Shown here: positions 1,565-11,385 of the stretch, piece by piece | Position numbering within the stretch: position 1 is the first letter of the stretch | Layout: every line of letters begins with the position of its first letter | Assembly (NCBI GenBank): GCA_017384185.1 | Contig: JAFNUH010000353.1 | Location: forward strand, 1 to 13,475 | Length of the DNA stretch: 13,475 bases | DNA from: Alistipes sp. | GTDB taxonomy: Bacteria > Bacteroidota > Bacteroidia > Bacteroidales > Rikenellaceae | Reading direction: 5' to 3' | Notes under the pieces: model-generated | The model's database searches: none | Seen by the model: only the letters and a program-made list of their open reading frames with translations | Told to the model about the DNA's origin: nothing | Made by a program: the position numbers and the translations under genes

Positions 1565-2740
1565 TTATTCTTCAACGGGACCGAAAACCTCCTTTACTGC
1601 CTCCAGCCAGCCGTAGCCCCAATAGCGGTCGGGCAAGAGGTAGCTACCCTCTACCCACTCGTTCCAGGCGTTAATCATCACGAACTTAGGCTGCTCGGGA
1701 TGCTCGTCGGCATATCGTTTAGCCTCCTTAAGGAAGTTTTTGAAAGCCTCGGGTGAGTGGTTGAAGCGTGTTACATCGTTCTCGCCCTTTGCGGGGAATC
1801 GAGGTGTGTCGTCCCAACCAATAGATACTGTGGGGAATACGGGAATATCCATATAGCTATCCCAGCCGTTACGGTAGTCAATAGCATTCTGTCCGTGGCG
1901 CATATAATCGGGGTCAAAGCCACCCATATTATACAATGCCCAGCTGTCGGGCTTTAGGAACATTCTGTTGTCAACGCTTGCCTTATTACGCTCGTTGAAT
2001 GGGAATCCTCCGCCATCCATCATCATATAGTGCATATCGGGGAAGCCAGCCTTGCGCACCTCGCTACGCATATACTCCATAGCCTCGATTGCAGCCTCCT
2101 TCGTGCCGAAACTCTTAATGAAGTTGTCGGTGCTGAAAATAGCAAATACGGGGCAGCCGTCAATCTTGGTATAGTTGGGGAGCTTGAAGTATTGGTTAAT
2201 CACACGGTCAACAATCTTCGGGAAGTCGTTGGGGTCGATTGCGCCGTGCCAAAGGATAGACTCATCGTCCTGCCATTTGTGGTAGTTCCAGTAGTTGTGT
2301 TTAACATCGTGGTTTGCCCACATAATGAAAAACTCCATCTTCTCGTTTGACGGAGCCTTCAGGAAGCCGTCGTTGAGTGCGCTCTCAAGGTAGGGGTAGT
2401 GGTCGAACCAGTACCAATCATATACAAATGTATTTACACCGTATTCCAATGCTGTCTGAATCCATTTCTCAACAACTACGGGGTCGTTGTCCATCTCGTA
2501 GCCCCACAATGGCTGCTTGGGCTGGTAGTGTCCGGGGAAGCGAGGGTCGCCCTTCTTAATAACCTCCCACTCACCTATGCCTTGCTCCCAGTTGGTGCGT
2601 CCTAACGAATCATCGTGGCACGAGGGCCATATAAATGCACACACACGATAGTCGTCTGCAATGGGCGTGGCGGGCTTTGTGTTGCAACCATAAGCAAATG
2701 CTAAGATAACTGCGCACACAATTAAAATTCCTTTTTTCAT
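1565..2740 (-). CDS. GH99-like / WbsX-family lipoprotein, putative glycan-active enzyme
   Basis: 391 residues. The N-terminus is a lipoprotein signal (MKKGILIVCAVILAFAYGC, lipidated Cys19). The residues after the cysteine (NTKPATP) lack an acidic surface-export signal, which favours the periplasmic face. The body matches the Glyco_tran_WbsX/GH99-like domain: WGYEMDNDP then GVNTFVYDWYWFD (substrate-pocket strand), FFIMWANHD, PVFAIFST, MMMDGGG, and near the C-terminus AWNEWVEGSYLLPD, where Glu361 and Glu364 match the paired acidic residues of GH99 (EWHEG-type motif). Databases name members either 'glycosyltransferase WbsX' or 'GH99-like'. A secreted lipoprotein with this motif is more easily read as a hydrolase, perhaps on mannose-containing glycans (inference). 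A -7 box lies just upstream and the cyclophilin gene follows after 34 nt. Confidence 0.85.
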   Translation of the reverse strand: MKKGILIVCAVILAFAYGCNTKPATPIADDYRVCAFIWPSCHDDSLGRTNWEQGIGEWEVIKKGDPRFPGHYQPKQPLWGYEMDNDPVVVEKWIQTALEYGVNTFVYDWYWFDHYPYLESALNDGFLKAPSNEKMEFFIMWANHDVKHNYWNYHKWQDDESILWHGAIDPNDFPKIVDRVINQYFKLPNYTKIDGCPVFAIFSTDNFIKSFGTKEAAIEAMEYMRSEVRKAGFPDMHYMMMDGGGFPFNERNKASVDNRMFLKPDSWALYNMGGFDPDYMRHGQNAIDYRNGWDSYMDIPVFPTVSIGWDDTPRFPAKGENDVTRFNHSPEAFKNFLKEAKRYADEHPEQPKFVMINAWNEWVEGSYLLPDRYWGYGWLEAVKEVFGPVEE

Positions 2741-2942: not shown

Positions 2943-4526
2943 TTATACTGTTGCGGCATTTGTAATTATAATATCTTTTCCGCTATTGTTTACAAATCCG
3001 GTGGTTTTTTTTCCGTTGAAATCAATCTCTTTGACTGTGGCACCTGCACCAATCTCTATTTTCGGAGCATATTTATCACCACTAACAGGAACAACGACTA
3101 TTTTTTCAATTGTACCGCCCTCAATTTTTAGATATCCACCTCCAATTGCTATTGTCGCTGTCGTTAATGTGTTAATCTTTACATCGCCCTTTATGGTCGT
3201 TTTTGCGTGCTCATATAAATATAGCTTTCCGTATTCTCCACCATCGATGGTCGCATTCACAGTGTTTACTACCGCACAATCGTACCAATCGTCAATGACA
3301 TTGCCGTATTGGTTTATAAATTTGCCATCACTATTTTTTGGACCGACAATTTGTGTTCCTGTTATTGTGCAATTTTTTAGATAACTATCTGTTCCATAAA
3401 TGAAAGTACCAATGCTGATAGTTCTTTTGTTATTAATAATACCCCAATTGCAGTTTACGGTAAGGTCTTTGATTGTAACATTCTCTAATGAATAAGTACC
3501 ATTATTTGTACCGTAGTCATAGTTACCAATTGATATATAACCTATCTTTCCGCTGAATGAAGTGTCCTTGATTTGAAGCGTGTTAGGCTTCTCAATTCCA
3601 AACATAATGCTATTATCCAAATTGCCTAATACATAGTTTTTACCTTCAACGGTCGCATCAGATGTAAAAGTATTAATCATACTATATAGCTTAAGCTTAG
3701 CCATAGGCTTTATTATGTTTCGCTTTAAGTCTATTGGAGTAGATGCACTCTTGGTAAATTCTCCACCTGCTGTATCGGTTACGGTTATGGTAAAACCTTG
3801 TTCGTATATTTGAACAGGCATACAAATGTAGAAAATAGTGGGTTCTTCTGTTAATTTGACGCCACCGCCTTCTTCCGCAGAGCAATCCAATGTGACGCTC
3901 GAACTACCGCCATCGTTCATTATTAGCTCAGGGGTATCGGCTGTGTTGTCGATGTGAAAACCTCCTGAGATTTTCTCTCCATTCTTTGTTGTGAGAGATA
4001 TTTTTTCCACAACGACATTCTCACCTTCGGCAGCACAAAGGTGTAGTCTGATGTATGACACCATATTTTTAAGCTCTATCTCATCGCCTAATGCTTCGCA
4101 ATTGGCATACATAATATGCGAGTTAGTGGCGAATGAGTTGGCACTATATGTCTGAGTTTCGGGCAACGTGCCGCTAATTTTCTCAGAGCTACAAGATACA
4201 CAAGCTGACGAGGGGTATAGCGCATAGGTGCCGGTCAGGCTCTCACCTGCATCAGATGAGGTGCCAGAGAATTTATTTGTCTCGACAGAGTATGTGTATT
4301 CACTCTTGGCGGTGTTGTTGTCGAAAATAGCAATTTTATCTCCATCGTCAAGTACAACTTTGAGATTGTCGAGATGAGCTCTTGTAGTGTCGCTGTTTGT
4401 TATGGACTCGATTTTTACATTGAAGCTATTGCTGTGGGGTATATCTGTGCCTAAATCGAAGTCATCCATTGACTCACAACCAACTGCAAACATTGTGATT
4501 GAGAGTAGAACAAATAATTTCTTCAT
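2943..4526 (-). CDS. Fimbrillin/Mfa-like surface lipoprotein with a possible beta-helix C-terminus
   Basis: 527 residues from the ATG at 4526. The reading frame is open further upstream, to 4715, but this start gives a clean lipoprotein signal (MKKLFVLLSITMFAVGC, Cys17) and the extension overlaps another small gene. The acidic residues after Cys17 (ESMDDFD) resemble the surface-export signal of Bacteroidetes lipoproteins. Residues of about 35-280 read like the fimbrillin/Mfa-like beta-sandwich: GDKIAIFD, a spaced YTYSVETNKFSG, GTYALYPSS, then LKNMVSYIRLHL. From about residue 300 the protein changes to short repeated strands with Asn and Gly turns (ENVTIKDLTVN, LKNCTITG, ATIDGGEYG, LKIEGGTIEKI), suggesting a right-handed beta-helix. 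The gene looks more A/T-rich than its neighbours. A role in adhesion or fimbriae is inferred from the family; no fimbrial assembly genes are in view. Confidence 0.75.
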   Translation of the reverse strand: MKKLFVLLSITMFAVGCESMDDFDLGTDIPHSNSFNVKIESITNSDTTRAHLDNLKVVLDDGDKIAIFDNNTAKSEYTYSVETNKFSGTSSDAGESLTGTYALYPSSACVSCSSEKISGTLPETQTYSANSFATNSHIMYANCEALGDEIELKNMVSYIRLHLCAAEGENVVVEKISLTTKNGEKISGGFHIDNTADTPELIMNDGGSSSVTLDCSAEEGGGVKLTEEPTIFYICMPVQIYEQGFTITVTDTAGGEFTKSASTPIDLKRNIIKPMAKLKLYSMINTFTSDATVEGKNYVLGNLDNSIMFGIEKPNTLQIKDTSFSGKIGYISIGNYDYGTNNGTYSLENVTIKDLTVNCNWGIINNKRTISIGTFIYGTDSYLKNCTITGTQIVGPKNSDGKFINQYGNVIDDWYDCAVVNTVNATIDGGEYGKLYLYEHAKTTIKGDVKINTLTTATIAIGGGYLKIEGGTIEKIVVVPVSGDKYAPKIEIGAGATVKEIDFNGKKTTGFVNNSGKDIIITNAATV

Positions 4527-4548
4527 AATATTTATTGTTTTAATGAGT

Positions 4549-4659
4549 TTAATCCCAGATACCTTCAGAATCTTCTGTGTAAGAACTTGCAAAGCCTTTT
4601 TCGATTGTAATCTCCAATATCTCAATCTTTGGAGATTCGTAAATTTTACTCTTTTCCAT
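4549..4659 (-). CDS. 36-residue peptide with a Y-SP-E-GFA-S pattern, upstream of the fimbrillin-like gene
   Basis: ATG at 4659, TAA at 4551-4549, 22 nt before the lipoprotein start. The peptide opens MEKSKIYESPKIEILEITIE (1-20), continues KGFASS (21-26) and ends in an acidic tail, YTEDSEGIWD (27-36). There is no hydrophobic signal segment. From memory, short peptides of this shape (Y.SP..E, then E.GFA.S, then a variable acidic or Gly-rich tail) recur in Bacteroidales ahead of fimbrillin-like and similar surface-protein genes and carry no assigned function; I could not check this here. The spacing implies cotranscription and perhaps translational coupling with the lipoprotein. It could be a secreted or modified peptide, a partner of the lipoprotein, or a regulatory leader. 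It is unlikely to be a chance ORF because the pattern is coherent and the start is well placed. Confidence 0.7.
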   Translation of the reverse strand: MEKSKIYESPKIEILEITIEKGFASSYTEDSEGIWD

Positions 4660-4716
4660 AGTTTTTTGATTTTAGTAGTTTGATATGCTGTTATTGAATT
4701 ATATGCACACGACAAT

Positions 4717-4741
4717 ACGGGTCGTATGTTCTACGACCTGT
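4717..4741 (-). promoter_or_regulatory. Leader hairpin upstream of the small peptide gene
   Basis: ACGGGTCGTA (4717-4726) pairs with TACGACCTGT (4732-4741) around a 5-nt loop, ten pairs including one G-T. In the minus-strand transcript it comes just after a C10 run (4756-4747) and about 60 nt before the peptide start codon. No T-run follows on that strand, so it is not an ordinary terminator; it may act on translation, mRNA stability or protein binding. Confidence 0.5.
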
Positions 4742-4877
4742 GTTATGGGGGGGGGGTAAAATGTTGATTAATAGCGATTTAAGTAATAATAGCGGGGTGG
4801 GGGGTAATTCCCTCTAATAAAATCTGATATTTAGGTTTTATGCGTATCATAATTGTTTAACCCCAAAATTTGTGACA

Positions 4878-4905
4878 CAAAAATAGGAAAATAACTCCAA
4901 AAATA
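4878..4905 (-). promoter_or_regulatory. Candidate tandem -7 boxes for the peptide/fimbrillin pair
   Basis: The minus strand carries TATTTTTG twice, at 4905-4898 and 4885-4878; each matches TAnnTTTG. These are the only matches I see between the peptide gene and the divergent gene, and they imply a leader of 200 nt or more that includes the C10 tract and the hairpin. No clear -33 element is visible and the area is A/T-rich, so chance matches are possible. Confidence 0.35.
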
Positions 4906-5046
4906 GCATAAAACGGAAATAAAAAAATGCGCTTACGGATTTTGTTATATTAATTATAGACATACGTAATTGAGTTGGGTGATAGATTTTTTCACGAGAT
5001 TTTAACAAAAAAGTCACGTTTTGTGTGGATATTTAATAAAAATGGT

Positions 5047-7632: not shown

Positions 7633-9450
7633 ATGAAATTCAAGATTCTGACTGTCGTGGCACTCCTTTTTGCCGTGGCATCTTTTGCACAGCAGCCTCG
7701 TGCTGAGTATCCTCGTCCGCAGTTTGAGCGTGCCGATTGGATGAATTTGAATGGTGAGTGGAGTTTTACACTCGACTTGGCTAATACGGGTCACGAGCGT
7801 GACTTCTATAATAGCAAGGGCTTTGATGGTAAGATAGTTGTGCCGTTTGCACCTGAGAGTAAGCTCTCGGGCGTAGCTCACACTGAGTTTATCAACGCCG
7901 TATGGTATCAGCGTCCTATCCAGATTCCCGCAGCGTGGCAGGGCAAGAGCGTGAAGTTGAACTTCGGCGCTGTATATTATGAGTCGGAGGTATTTATCGA
8001 CGGTAAGTTCGTAGGTCGCCACTATGGTGGTTCAGACTCTTTCTCATACGATATTACACCCTATGTTGCCGACGGTAAGGAGCACAACCTCGTTGTCCAC
8101 GCCGTGAGCGATGTTCGTAGCGAGCAGCTACCTGGTGGTAAGCAGTCACACCGCTTGAACTCTTACGGTTGTATGTACACCCGTACAACAGGTATCTGGC
8201 AGACCGTATGGATGGAGGCTGTTGACGCTCTCGGTTTGGAGCGTGTACAGGTTATGACCGACATCGACCAGAATCAGATTGTTGTAACTCCTACCTTCTA
8301 TGGCTATGCAAATGGAAACCGTTTCGTAGTGAGTGTTAAGGATGGCGATAAGGTGGTAGCTAAGGCTGACGTGGTAGCTGCGCAGGGTATCCCCGTAGTT
8401 ATTCCCGTTAAGAAGCCTAAGTTGTGGAGCCCCGAGTCTCCCTTCCTCTACGATGTTGTATATGAGGTGAAGAATGCCGCAGGTCAGACTTTGGATAAGG
8501 TTGACGCCTATGTTGGTATGCGTAAGATTCATATCGATGGCACAAAGATTCTCTTGAACAATAAGCCTTACTACCAGCGTTTGGTTCTCGATCAGGGCTT
8601 CTATCCCGATGGCGTATGGACAGCACCCTCGGATGCCGCTTTGAAGGCAGATATCGAGATGTCTATGGCCGCAGGTTTCAACGGTGCTCGTCTCCACCAG
8701 AAGGTATTTGAGGAGCGCTTCTACTATTGGGCTGATAAGCTCGGTTACCTGGTATGGGGCGAGATGGCATCGTGGGGTAAGGACTCTTCATCAGCCGTTG
8801 CTGCACGTAACTTTATCGGCGAGTGGACCAATATCGTGGTTCGTGACCGCAACCACCCCGCATTGGTAACGTGGACTCCCTTCAACGAGGAGTGGGCTGC
8901 AACAACAAACGAGATGGGTCGTTTCCTTACAGATGTTTATGAGTTGACTCGCAAGTTGGACCCCTCACGTCCCGTGAATACAGTCAGCGGTGGTCTGTAT
9001 GTTATCTCTGATTTCTGTACATCTCACAGCTACCAGCAGGATGGTGAGAAGTTACACAAGCAGCTCTTCGATGGCGAGAAGTTCTATCAGCCACAGGCTC
9101 CTGGTAAGGTGCATCCCAACACTATCAAGCAGCTCTACTATGATGGTAAGGTTCCCTATATCATCGACGAGTTTGGTGGTATCAAGTGCGCAGAGGCTAA
9201 CCCCTCGGAGGAGAATGCCTGGGGTTATGGTAATGCCGCTCCCACGAAGGAGGACTTCTACAAGCGTCTGGAGTCGCAGGTGAAGGCTATTATCGACCAC
9301 AGCGATAAGATTTGCGGTTTCTGCTACACACAGCTTACCGACGTTGAGCAGGAGCAGAATGGTGTATATTACTTTAACCGTGGTAATAAGTACGATATGG
9401 AGCGTGTGAAGGCTATCTTCCAGATGGCAGCTCCTGGTTATGAGCAGTAG
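7633..9450 (+). CDS. Secreted glycoside hydrolase family 2 enzyme, copy 1 (beta-galactosidase-like)
   Basis: 605 residues with a signal peptide (MKFKILTVVALLFAVASFA|QQ), so probably periplasmic. The layout is typical of GH2: a jelly-roll sugar-binding domain (about 35-195, including NLNGEWSFTLD and CMYTRTTGIWQTVWMEAV), an Ig-like domain (about 200-300, ending KLWSPESPFLYDV) and a TIM barrel. The catalytic acid/base is Glu419 in TPFNEEW and the nucleophile is Glu513 in IIDEFGG, both intact. The family retains beta-configuration and includes beta-galactosidases, glucuronidases and mannosidases. I do not see the NxKG motif of glucuronidases. Neighbouring galM and galK favour a galactoside substrate, which is inference. 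It lies 87 nt ahead of a close paralogue. Confidence 0.92.
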   Translation: MKFKILTVVALLFAVASFAQQPRAEYPRPQFERADWMNLNGEWSFTLDLANTGHERDFYNSKGFDGKIVVPFAPESKLSGVAHTEFINAVWYQRPIQIPAAWQGKSVKLNFGAVYYESEVFIDGKFVGRHYGGSDSFSYDITPYVADGKEHNLVVHAVSDVRSEQLPGGKQSHRLNSYGCMYTRTTGIWQTVWMEAVDALGLERVQVMTDIDQNQIVVTPTFYGYANGNRFVVSVKDGDKVVAKADVVAAQGIPVVIPVKKPKLWSPESPFLYDVVYEVKNAAGQTLDKVDAYVGMRKIHIDGTKILLNNKPYYQRLVLDQGFYPDGVWTAPSDAALKADIEMSMAAGFNGARLHQKVFEERFYYWADKLGYLVWGEMASWGKDSSSAVAARNFIGEWTNIVVRDRNHPALVTWTPFNEEWAATTNEMGRFLTDVYELTRKLDPSRPVNTVSGGLYVISDFCTSHSYQQDGEKLHKQLFDGEKFYQPQAPGKVHPNTIKQLYYDGKVPYIIDEFGGIKCAEANPSEENAWGYGNAAPTKEDFYKRLESQVKAIIDHSDKICGFCYTQLTDVEQEQNGVYYFNRGNKYDMERVKAIFQMAAPGYEQ

Positions 9451-9460
9451 TAATTCGATG

Positions 9461-9497
9461 CAAGCCTACGGCGGACTATGAGTTCGTTGTAGGCTTG
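9461..9497 (+). promoter_or_regulatory. Intercistronic hairpin between the two GH2 genes
   Basis: CAAGCCTAC (9461-9469) pairs perfectly with GTAGGCTTG (9489-9497). The loop is 19 nt and can form a small inner stem. No T-run follows, so full termination is unlikely; mRNA processing, 3' protection or partial attenuation between the paralogues is more plausible. Confidence 0.55.
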
Positions 9498-9537
9498 AAT
9501 TGTCTAAATCGGAATCTAAATAATAAAACTATAACCA

Positions 9538-11385
9538 ATGAAAAAAATTATTTTAGCAGTTGTTGCCCTTATGATTTGGGCAGGTGCGTTGGCTCAGGTG
9601 CCACGTGCTGAGTACCCCCGTCCTCAGATGGAGCGTGCGGAGTGGGTAAACCTTAACGGTGAGTGGTCATATACACTCGACCTCGTAAAGACTGGTTGGG
9701 AGCGTAACCTTATGGCAAGTAAGGGCTTCGACGGTAAGATTATCGTGCCGTTTGCTCCTGAGAGTAAGCTTTCGGGCGTTGAGCATACCGAGTTTATCCC
9801 CTGCATCTGGTATCAGCGTGAGATTACCATCCCCGCAGAGTGGAGTGGTAAGGATGTGCTGTTGAACTTCGGTGCAGTATATTATGAGTCAGAGGTTTAT
9901 GTTGATGGTCAGTTCGTTGACCGTCACTTCGGTGGCTCAGACTCTTTCTCTGTCGATATCACAAAGTTTGTCGAGGCTGGCAAGACTCACTCGTTGGTTG
10001 TTGCTGCATCAAGCGACTTGCGTTCGGGTCGTCAGTCGGCTGGTAAGCAGTCTTTGCGTCACGGTCCCTTTGAGTGTATGTACACTCGTACCACAGGTAT
10101 CTGGCAGACTGTTTGGATGGAGGCTGTTGCTCCCACAGCTATCAAGCGTGTGAAGTACACAACCGATATCGATCGTAGCGCCGTTACTATGGAGTTCACG
10201 ATGCGTCGTAACGCCGTAGGTGATGTTCTTACAATCAACGTTAAGGATGGCGCAAAGGTTGTTGCAACCGATACAGCTCCCGTAGCATCTGGCTCTATCG
10301 TTACATTGCCTATCAAGAAGGCTAAGTTGTGGAGCCCCGAGTCTCCTTTCCTCTACGATGTGGAGTTGATTTTGAAGAATGCGGCAGGTCAGGTTATCGA
10401 CAAGGTTGATTCATACTTCGGTATGCGCAAGATTCACACCGTTGGTAATAAGATCTATTTGAACAATGAGCCTTACTACCAGCGTTTGGTATTGGATCAG
10501 GGCTTCTATCCCGATGGTATCTGGACAGCTCCCTCGGATGCAGCTTTGAAGAAGGATATCGAGCTCTCTATGGCTGCAGGTTTCAATGGCGCACGTCTGC
10601 ACCAGAAGGTCTTCGAGGAGCGTTTCCACTACTGGGCTGATAAGTTGGGCTACCTTACTTGGGGTGAGGCTCCCAGCTGGGGCTTCGATGCAAATAATGT
10701 TGAGTCGGCTCGTAACTACATCGCTGAGTGGCGTAACGTGGTAGTTCGTGATATGAACCACCCCTCAATCGTAACTTGGACTCCCTTCAACGAGCAGTTC
10801 TGGCCCGATGAGACTGAGTTCCCCCGCTTCCAGGCTGATATCTACACTATCACTAAGCAGTTGGATCCCTCACGTCCTATCAATACCGTGAGCGGTGGTG
10901 TACAGACTATGACCGACATCTGGACCGAGCACCACTACGAGCAGAATCCCGAGAAGTTGCGTGAGATCGTATTCAACGAGGGTAAGATGTTCACTCGCAA
11001 GCCTCAGATTCAGGCTCGTCCCCGTGGTAACATCGGCTTCAACCGTGGTGTGTTGAACGATCCCTATACATTCCCCGTATATAATGGCGAGATTCCCTAT
11101 ATCCTTGACGAGTTTGGTGGTATCAAGTGTATGGAGGCTAACCCCGCCGAGGGCGATGCTTGGGGCTATGGCGATGCAGCAAAGACTAAGGAGGATTTCT
11201 ACAAGCGCTTGGAGGCTCAGGTACGTGTACTTATCGAGATGAGCGACAAGATGTGGGGTTACTGCTACACTCAGCTCACCGACGTTATGCAGGAACAGAA
11301 CGGTGTATACTACTACGACCGTGGCGTGAAGTACGATATGGAGCGTGTTCGTAAGATATTCCAGATGGAGTTACCTGAAAAGTAG
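9538..11385 (+). CDS. Secreted glycoside hydrolase family 2 enzyme, copy 2 (beta-galactosidase-like)
   Basis: 615 residues with a signal peptide (MKKIILAVVALMIWAGALA|QV). It is a tandem paralogue of the preceding gene: over residues 309-377 of both proteins, 63 of 69 positions are identical. The same three-domain GH2 layout is present, with acid/base Glu419 (TPFNEQF) and nucleophile Glu525 (ILDEFGG). Between the two catalytic residues it carries 12 more amino acids than copy 1, in a loop around residues 480-515 (MFTRKPQIQARPRGNIGFN and following). The residue after the acid/base also differs (Gln-Phe instead of Glu-Trp). These changes lie near the active site, so the two enzymes may differ in linkage or substrate. 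It is probably cotranscribed with copy 1; its stop codon abuts the second repeat copy. Confidence 0.92.
   Translation: MKKIILAVVALMIWAGALAQVPRAEYPRPQMERAEWVNLNGEWSYTLDLVKTGWERNLMASKGFDGKIIVPFAPESKLSGVEHTEFIPCIWYQREITIPAEWSGKDVLLNFGAVYYESEVYVDGQFVDRHFGGSDSFSVDITKFVEAGKTHSLVVAASSDLRSGRQSAGKQSLRHGPFECMYTRTTGIWQTVWMEAVAPTAIKRVKYTTDIDRSAVTMEFTMRRNAVGDVLTINVKDGAKVVATDTAPVASGSIVTLPIKKAKLWSPESPFLYDVELILKNAAGQVIDKVDSYFGMRKIHTVGNKIYLNNEPYYQRLVLDQGFYPDGIWTAPSDAALKKDIELSMAAGFNGARLHQKVFEERFHYWADKLGYLTWGEAPSWGFDANNVESARNYIAEWRNVVVRDMNHPSIVTWTPFNEQFWPDETEFPRFQADIYTITKQLDPSRPINTVSGGVQTMTDIWTEHHYEQNPEKLREIVFNEGKMFTRKPQIQARPRGNIGFNRGVLNDPYTFPVYNGEIPYILDEFGGIKCMEANPAEGDAWGYGDAAKTKEDFYKRLEAQVRVLIEMSDKMWGYCYTQLTDVMQEQNGVYYYDRGVKYDMERVRKIFQMELPEK

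Follow-up and report, generated by a model that had tools for sequence, protein, structure and literature searches.

What is the tiny open reading frame (ORF) that stands just ahead of a surface lipoprotein gene in a contig of Alistipes sp. (JAFNUH010000353.1, assembly GCA_017384185.1)? The contig, 13,475 nt long and analysed whole (hereafter, the window), is one (C12) of a 1.77-Mb draft genome that is 74.5% complete. The ORF (4549–4659, minus strand) starts with ATG and codes for a 36-aa product, MEKSKIYESPKIEILEITIEKGFASSYTEDSEGIWD; between its stop and the ATG of the lipoprotein gene, at 4526 (MKKLFVLLSITMFAVGC), there are 22 nt, an arrangement correctly described in an earlier interpretation of the window made from its letters (the sequence-only reading). 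We think it likely that the peptide is the precursor of a ribosomally synthesized and post-translationally modified peptide (RiPP) similar to the linear polyphosphorylated peptides (LPPs), and that it is matured in trans and acts together with the lipoprotein encoded downstream.

The ORF is a genuine gene under selection and belongs to a family found in Bacteroidales. A single-sequence search found the peptide in 27 of 61 genomes (own genome included), and a 29-row profile (E ≤ 0.01) found it in 118 of 151 genomes of the genus, with 1 to 23 copies each; the own genome has two copies, the second being 16 nt ahead of another lipoprotein. We fetched 60 loci, a selection from the listed, better-scoring profile matches; the peptide is present in all of them, and 54 of the 60 peptides were outside the search profile, though a choice by profile favours motif conservation. 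By the method of Nei and Gojobori (NG86), the mean proportion of synonymous differences was 0.60 versus 0.18 for non-synonymous ones (116 pairs, not independent), while dN/dS of the window copy was 0.11, 0.08 and 0.05 in comparison with L094, L063 and L064, respectively. Purifying selection had been named by the sequence-only reading as a sign of a genuine system, and it was seen, as were homologues with conserved residues. One peptide (L097) is cut short after GFAGS, a sign of decay or of sequence error.

Conservation resides in the front part of the peptide. Among the 60 relatives Tyr and Pro of the YxxP motif are invariant, Val, Ile or Leu is found two residues after Pro in 58, and Glu is present in 59; in the GFAxS motif G, F and A are present in all 60, with Ser in 59 and Thr in one. 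The family leader consensus is YxxPx[VI]E[VI].EI.VE.GFA.S. The tail was analysed in 56 peptide–lipoprotein pairs (four of the 60 were dropped, as motif, lipobox or a 5-aa tail was not found): its median length is 14 aa and median charge −3, it has no Cys, its composition includes G (21%), E (14%), D (12%), P (8%) and W (6.7%), and 43 of 56 tails have a W no more than six residues from the end. The conserved front and variable tail envisaged by the sequence-only reading are borne out by these counts; the ordered pattern that it extended to a tail ending in W-D is not, the tail being acidic and variable. Similarity of tails tracks similarity of the N-domains of the paired lipoproteins (r 0.73; permutation maximum 0.19), whereas similarity of leaders barely does (r 0.24, partial 0.08).

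The gene next to the peptide is a lipoprotein gene in 54 of 60 loci by a strict pattern, and in 56 of 60 by a relaxed one (start at any Met among residues 1 to 60), versus 43 of 292 other ORFs of the same loci. In one of the 56 (L097) the lipoprotein is 671 nt off and does not resemble the others; of the four loci that fail the relaxed pattern, L102, L106 and L109 have a next gene that on inspection is a lipoprotein gene, and only L115 does not. The median gap is 22 nt (57 loci). A profile of the fimbrillin-like N-domain matches the next gene in 54 of 60 loci (22 of 28 among genes outside the profile), so the linkage that the sequence-only reading had proposed to tabulate is strong. This profile (A6, 33 members, with near-invariant Arg, in TR, and Trp) matches the solved adhesin-like proteins 4k4k (1.9e-7) and 4eps (1.9e-5) in PDB. 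Pfam family Mfa_like_1 was found in five of the 33 N-domains; the window lipoprotein on its own gave no significant Pfam match and no PDB match; the fimbrillin-type N-domain is recognized in the partner family by profile and not in the window protein alone. Partner lipoproteins span about 270 to 1086 aa and have diverse C-termini. Two sets of 13 genomes each were chosen to compare the fimbrillin-like class: it gave 119 matches (3–24 each) where the system is present versus 20 (0–4 each) where it is absent (p 3e-5 between groups), although a profile made from paired proteins may bias this comparison.

Candidate maturation enzymes are present in the genus, and their presence follows that of the peptide. 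A PqqD-type RiPP recognition element (RRE) was detected in 114 of 151 genomes, nearly always as a single copy: 112 genomes had both peptide and RRE, six the peptide only, two the RRE only (G068 and G163) and 31 neither (Fisher test 7e-24, uncorrected). For the other enzymes 101 genomes of the genus were searched. An HPr-kinase-like kinase, found by similarity to one from a RiPP-like cluster of another family, is in 80 of them (79 of 85 peptide-bearing and 1 of 16 peptide-less genomes), and NTP_transf_5 is in 74 (73 of 85 and 1 of 16, respectively). Among the 38 genomes with completeness of 90% or more and contamination of 5% or less, 29 had peptide, RRE, kinase and NTP_transf_5, eight had none of the four, and the remaining one (G096) had three, without NTP_transf_5. 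The usual order at the RRE locus is RecQ, RRE, His-rich protein, TonB receptor, HMA protein; we fetched 24 RecQ loci from genomes in which RRE or peptide was missing, and in 16 of them RecQ and TonB are retained but the RRE is gone from the space between, while one (G068) has the RRE. An ABC transporter, the kinase and an S26-like peptidase are adjacent in at least 8 of 20 genus loci, and transporter and kinase in at least 12 of 20.

In the own genome the RRE is on contig C346, kinase and peptidase are on C316, and NTP_transf_5 (PF14907) is on C135. The S26-like peptidase (locus L287, 3487–4026, minus strand) has motifs GNSMRP, HR and GDG; its S32, H72 and D87 are invariant in 11 relatives and its profile matches signal peptidase I at 3e-4, while two such peptidases tested against Pfam gave no match. 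The HPr-kinase-like kinase lies at 3911–4804 of the same locus (minus strand); a related kinase shows the PEPCK/HprK fold, and two kinases tested against Pfam gave no HprK match. A related RRE folds like the RREs of lasso pathways.

Several observations were made beside these. The neighbours of the RRE (L179, L181, L184 and others) look like a metal-uptake operon with no evident tie to the peptides. The NTP_transf_5 match of G116 (C29) contains stops, a sign of decay or of sequence error. A second, different set of RRE, NTP_transf_5 and kinase occurs within exopolysaccharide export loci (L194, L265 and L266, from G033, G026 and G008, as well as L256); the RRE of L265 was detected by genome search and is absent from the ORF calls of the locus. 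Two of these loci (L266 and L256) carry in addition a YxxP peptide and a fimbrillin-like lipoprotein.

In some Bacteroidales outside the genus, peptide and enzymes lie together. A single locus in another family of the order (L255) holds peptide, kinase, S26 peptidase, RRE, NTP_transf_5 and ABC transporter, and in Phocaeicola faecalis FXJYN30E22 (L344) the gene order is peptide, lipoprotein (1086 aa), RRE, NTP_transf_5, ABC transporter, kinase, S26 peptidase. We surveyed 80 named kinase loci with thresholded profiles, many of the contigs being short: within the fetched DNA, S26 was found in 57, ABC in 46, RRE in 33 and NTP_transf_5 in 14. A peptide of GFA, GFG or GY type was seen by eye in nine of the 80 (L319, L320, L328, L331, L336, L339, L343, L344 and L350); in the eight of these that were read, the next gene was a lipoprotein in seven and the RRE in L343. 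In L339 (Phocaeicola sartorii JCM 17136) the frames of lipoprotein, ABC transporter and kinase are split, a sign of decay or of sequence error. More divergent YxxP small proteins were noticed in other Bacteroidales (L127/L256, L129 and L131), two of them ahead of lipoprotein-like genes; the broader YxxP peptide family may be far larger.

We propose the following path. The front half of the peptide (YxxPx[VIL]E and on) would be a beta-strand-like leader bound by the discrete PqqD-type RRE from the RecQ locus; the RRE would present the precursor to the HPr-kinase-like kinase, which would phosphorylate the conserved Ser of GFAxS, and also to the S26/signal-peptidase-like leader peptidase. The phosphate is probably decorated further by NTP_transf_5, and export of the acidic core would fall to an MsbA-like ABC transporter. 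A single enzyme set would serve in trans many precursors scattered over the genome. Because each precursor is encoded just ahead of its own fimbrillin-like lipoprotein, the likeliest role of the mature core is to act with this protein, as ligand, strand or decoration. A wider proposal, which we offer tentatively, is a modular surface assembly: one set of RRE, kinase, peptidase and transporter would mature many phosphopeptides, each for the adjacent lipoprotein, and the core, once exported, would switch on, polymerise or tag the adhesin, to which it would be matched as a ligand, a donor strand or a covalent decoration. If so, RiPP chemistry would serve cell-surface architecture and not chemical warfare.

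A number of points weigh against the assignment as an LPP-like precursor. Six peptide-bearing genomes have no detected RRE (G035, G084, G104, G119, G135 and G161); two of these, G035 and G119 (L199 and L200; 71% and 75% complete), keep four peptides and one peptide, respectively, with no kinase, no NTP_transf_5 and no RRE at a retained RecQ locus, which suggests either recent loss of the machinery or missing sequence. The RRE adjoins the TonB/HMA operon and not the peptides, and its similarity to LppB, the RRE of the LPP pathway, is weak (9x8z, E 0.3). The best match to an ABC exporter in the own genome is at 31% identity, and the exporter is not established. The full LPP leader consensus, YxxPxVLxHQxIxFETxxS (PMC13381572), is not seen: after YxxPxV the residues differ (GFAxS versus FETxxS), at similar spacing. 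Mfa_like_1 was found in just one of six partner lipoproteins from clustered loci (L350). Covariation of core and lipoprotein could be explained by co-inheritance of a fast part beside a constrained slow part. Beyond the genus the profile search found few peptides, in 13 of 294 genomes of the order (14 of 295 with own genome); two matches (G308 and G347) looked false by eye and were dropped, and PqqD was present in 9 of the 11 peptide genomes left (11 of 13 before dropping) versus 185 of 295 overall, giving weak support. On a tree of 56 genomes made from four genes, the peptide changed seven times and the RRE nine times; five independent contrasts on well-supported branches were on average 2.7 concordant and 0 discordant, the rest showing no peptide change (median p 0.25). 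The co-occurrence is partly phylogenetic, and co-loss by itself is suggestive but underpowered.

Could peptide and enzymes share their lineages only because each was gained or lost there for reasons of its own? The absences do cluster on the tree, with few independent contrasts on its well-supported branches; yet the best tree has seven peptide changes with no discordant contrast, RRE, kinase and NTP_transf_5 behave alike from three separate places, and peptide and machinery are clustered together in other genera, so that mere coincidence appears very improbable. We give as little weight to the idea that the peptide is the precursor of a lasso peptide proper, with its lasso cyclase encoded far away: the YxxPx[VIL] leader and the lasso-type fold of the RRE would suit it, but the clusters hold lipoprotein, RRE, NTP_transf_5, ABC transporter, kinase and S26 peptidase, and no B2 cysteine peptidase or macrolactam cyclase was seen by eye, with no profile scan, among the ORFs of L344, L331, L328, L343 and L255.

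The sequence-only reading had left three options: a leader–core peptide, a chaperone-like partner of the lipoprotein and a regulatory peptide. As an unmodified cytoplasmic chaperone or escort, the peptide would bind the paired lipoprotein before export through its beta-strand-like front; tight pairing (56 of 60 loci by pattern, 54 of 60 by profile) and covariation of the core with the lipoprotein N-domain fit this role, but binding to diverse lipoproteins would then fall to the invariant part of the peptide, and co-occurrence with RRE and kinase, as well as the RRE-binding motif, would be left unexplained, which makes the option unlikely. Arrest peptides act at their C-terminal end. A regulatory leader peptide, whose translation would couple or attenuate lipoprotein expression with no role for the product, is suggested by the short gap to the lipoprotein start and by the length of the 5′ leader, which contains poly-C tracts in some loci and, in the window as in three relatives, also a mini-ORF and a hairpin. 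Here, however, the conserved residues are in front and not at the C-terminal end, selection on amino acids is strong, presence tracks RRE, kinase and NTP_transf_5, and some copies (L255 and L343) precede machinery and not a lipoprotein; we regard regulation of this kind as quite unlikely. Enzymes and machinery-adjacent copies thus stay unaccounted for by both these options, while three things speak for the leader–core option: the RRE-binding motif, the co-occurrence with RRE, kinase and NTP_transf_5, and the clusters elsewhere.

Features of the window are listed below. The leader upstream of the peptide (4690–4910, minus strand) is common to three close relatives, which share a TAnnTTTG box (which we take to be the Bacteroidetes −7 consensus), a mini-ORF MIxIKxKYQIL.EGITP, two C tracts and the hairpin; 17 more of the 60 loci have single C tracts, mostly of exactly nine. 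Tracts of at least eight C numbered 23 in 20.0 kb upstream of peptides, whereas the remaining 429 kb of these loci had 6, with C and G tracts both counted. Such leader elements could serve phase variation or control at the RNA level. Elsewhere in the window, the paired lipoprotein gene is followed by one for a Glyco_tran_WbsX protein (Pfam, 3e-47; 1565–2740, minus strand), and a glycoside hydrolase family 2 gene stands by eye in tandem with a second similar one (7633–11385, plus strand).

Features of the window around the peptide gene
Feature	Coordinates	Strand	Basis
36-aa precursor-like peptide gene	4549..4659	-	ORF, family matches, purifying selection
Conserved leader Y7..S26, YESPKIEILEITIEKGFASS; YxxPx[VIL] of RRE-binding motif type	4582..4641	-	60 relatives; motif per PMC13381572
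Ser26 codon, predicted phospho-acceptor	4582..4584	-	inferred from spacing to Tyr
Variable acidic core/tail YTEDSEGIWD	4552..4581	-	composition and covariation over 56 pairs
Paired lipoprotein, 527 aa, lipobox VGC, fimbrillin-like N-domain (4032-4478 in profile)	2943..4526	-	ORF; family profile
Hairpin GGTCGTA..TACGACC in 5′ leader	4714..4744	-	sequence
C10 tract in 5′ leader	4747..4756	-	sequence
Mini-ORF MIRIKPKYQILLEGITPHPAIIT in 5′ leader, similar in three relatives	4779..4850	-	ORF list, comparison
TAnnTTTG promoter-like box	4878..4885	-	sequence; consensus assumed

The findings place an LPP-type core gene set, reported before as restricted to Bacillota (PMC13381572), in gut Bacteroidales. 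The precursors point to a partner, the fimbrillin-like surface lipoproteins, making the role of phosphorylated linear RiPPs testable in cultured Phocaeicola or Alistipes. With a one-to-many layout, dispersed precursors are hard to detect by searching around enzyme genes; the family also gives access to the many small genes of gut bacteria that lack annotation. That the system was undescribed, as the sequence-only reading had supposed, is true of its occurrence in Bacteroidales and of its pairing with lipoproteins, no link between RiPPs and fimbrillins having been found in the literature searched; the core gene set itself has been described for Bacillota (PMC13381572).

Among known systems, the partners resemble Type V pilus fimbrillins (Mfa_like_1) in the N-domain, as the matches to 4k4k and 4eps and the Mfa_like_1 hits show, and differ from them in their range of lengths and diverse C-termini. 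With lasso pathways (paeninodin-type and others; TbiB1, TfuB1, PbaB1) the system shares the RRE fold and the leader motif: discrete RREs of lasso and LPP pathways bind [Y/W]xxPx[L/V/I/F/A] (PMC13381572). It differs in that the clustered versions, in the ORFs inspected, have no visible B2 peptidase or cyclase.

The closest likeness is to the LPPs, reported in 2026 from Paenibacillus alginolyticus (lppA-K-B-S-D-N) and stated to be restricted to Bacillota, the word stem ‘Bacteroid’ being absent from the main text (PMC13381572). There the YxxP leader is bound by LppB, the RRE; LppK adds phosphate to S3 again and again, and to Ser only; LppS cleaves FET|AQS with assistance of the RRE; LppD is the export pump; and deletion of LppN had no effect in the test host (PMC13381572). 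Here we found the short precursor with YxxPxV-type leader and variable C-terminus, the discrete RRE, the S26-like peptidase of signal peptidase I type with Ser, His and Asp, the HprK-like kinase and the NTP transferase; an ABC transporter, a candidate for the MsbA-like exporter, lies with the kinase in genus loci and clusters. The conserved Ser is 19 residues after Tyr, versus 18 (to S3) in LppA, and F-A-x-S is a plausible equivalent of A-Q-S3. By these likenesses the system presumably works as the LPP pathway does. We did not file it as LPP because the leader consensus and, in the genus, the clustering are not seen (the genes of the window's genome do not form a single cluster), and the LPP clade of the RRE is not established. 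What sets it apart is that its precursors, in Bacteroidales and not Bacillota, are paired with fimbrillin-like lipoproteins, and that they are many, with genes scattered, in the window's genus, while in Phocaeicola and others the genes are clustered.
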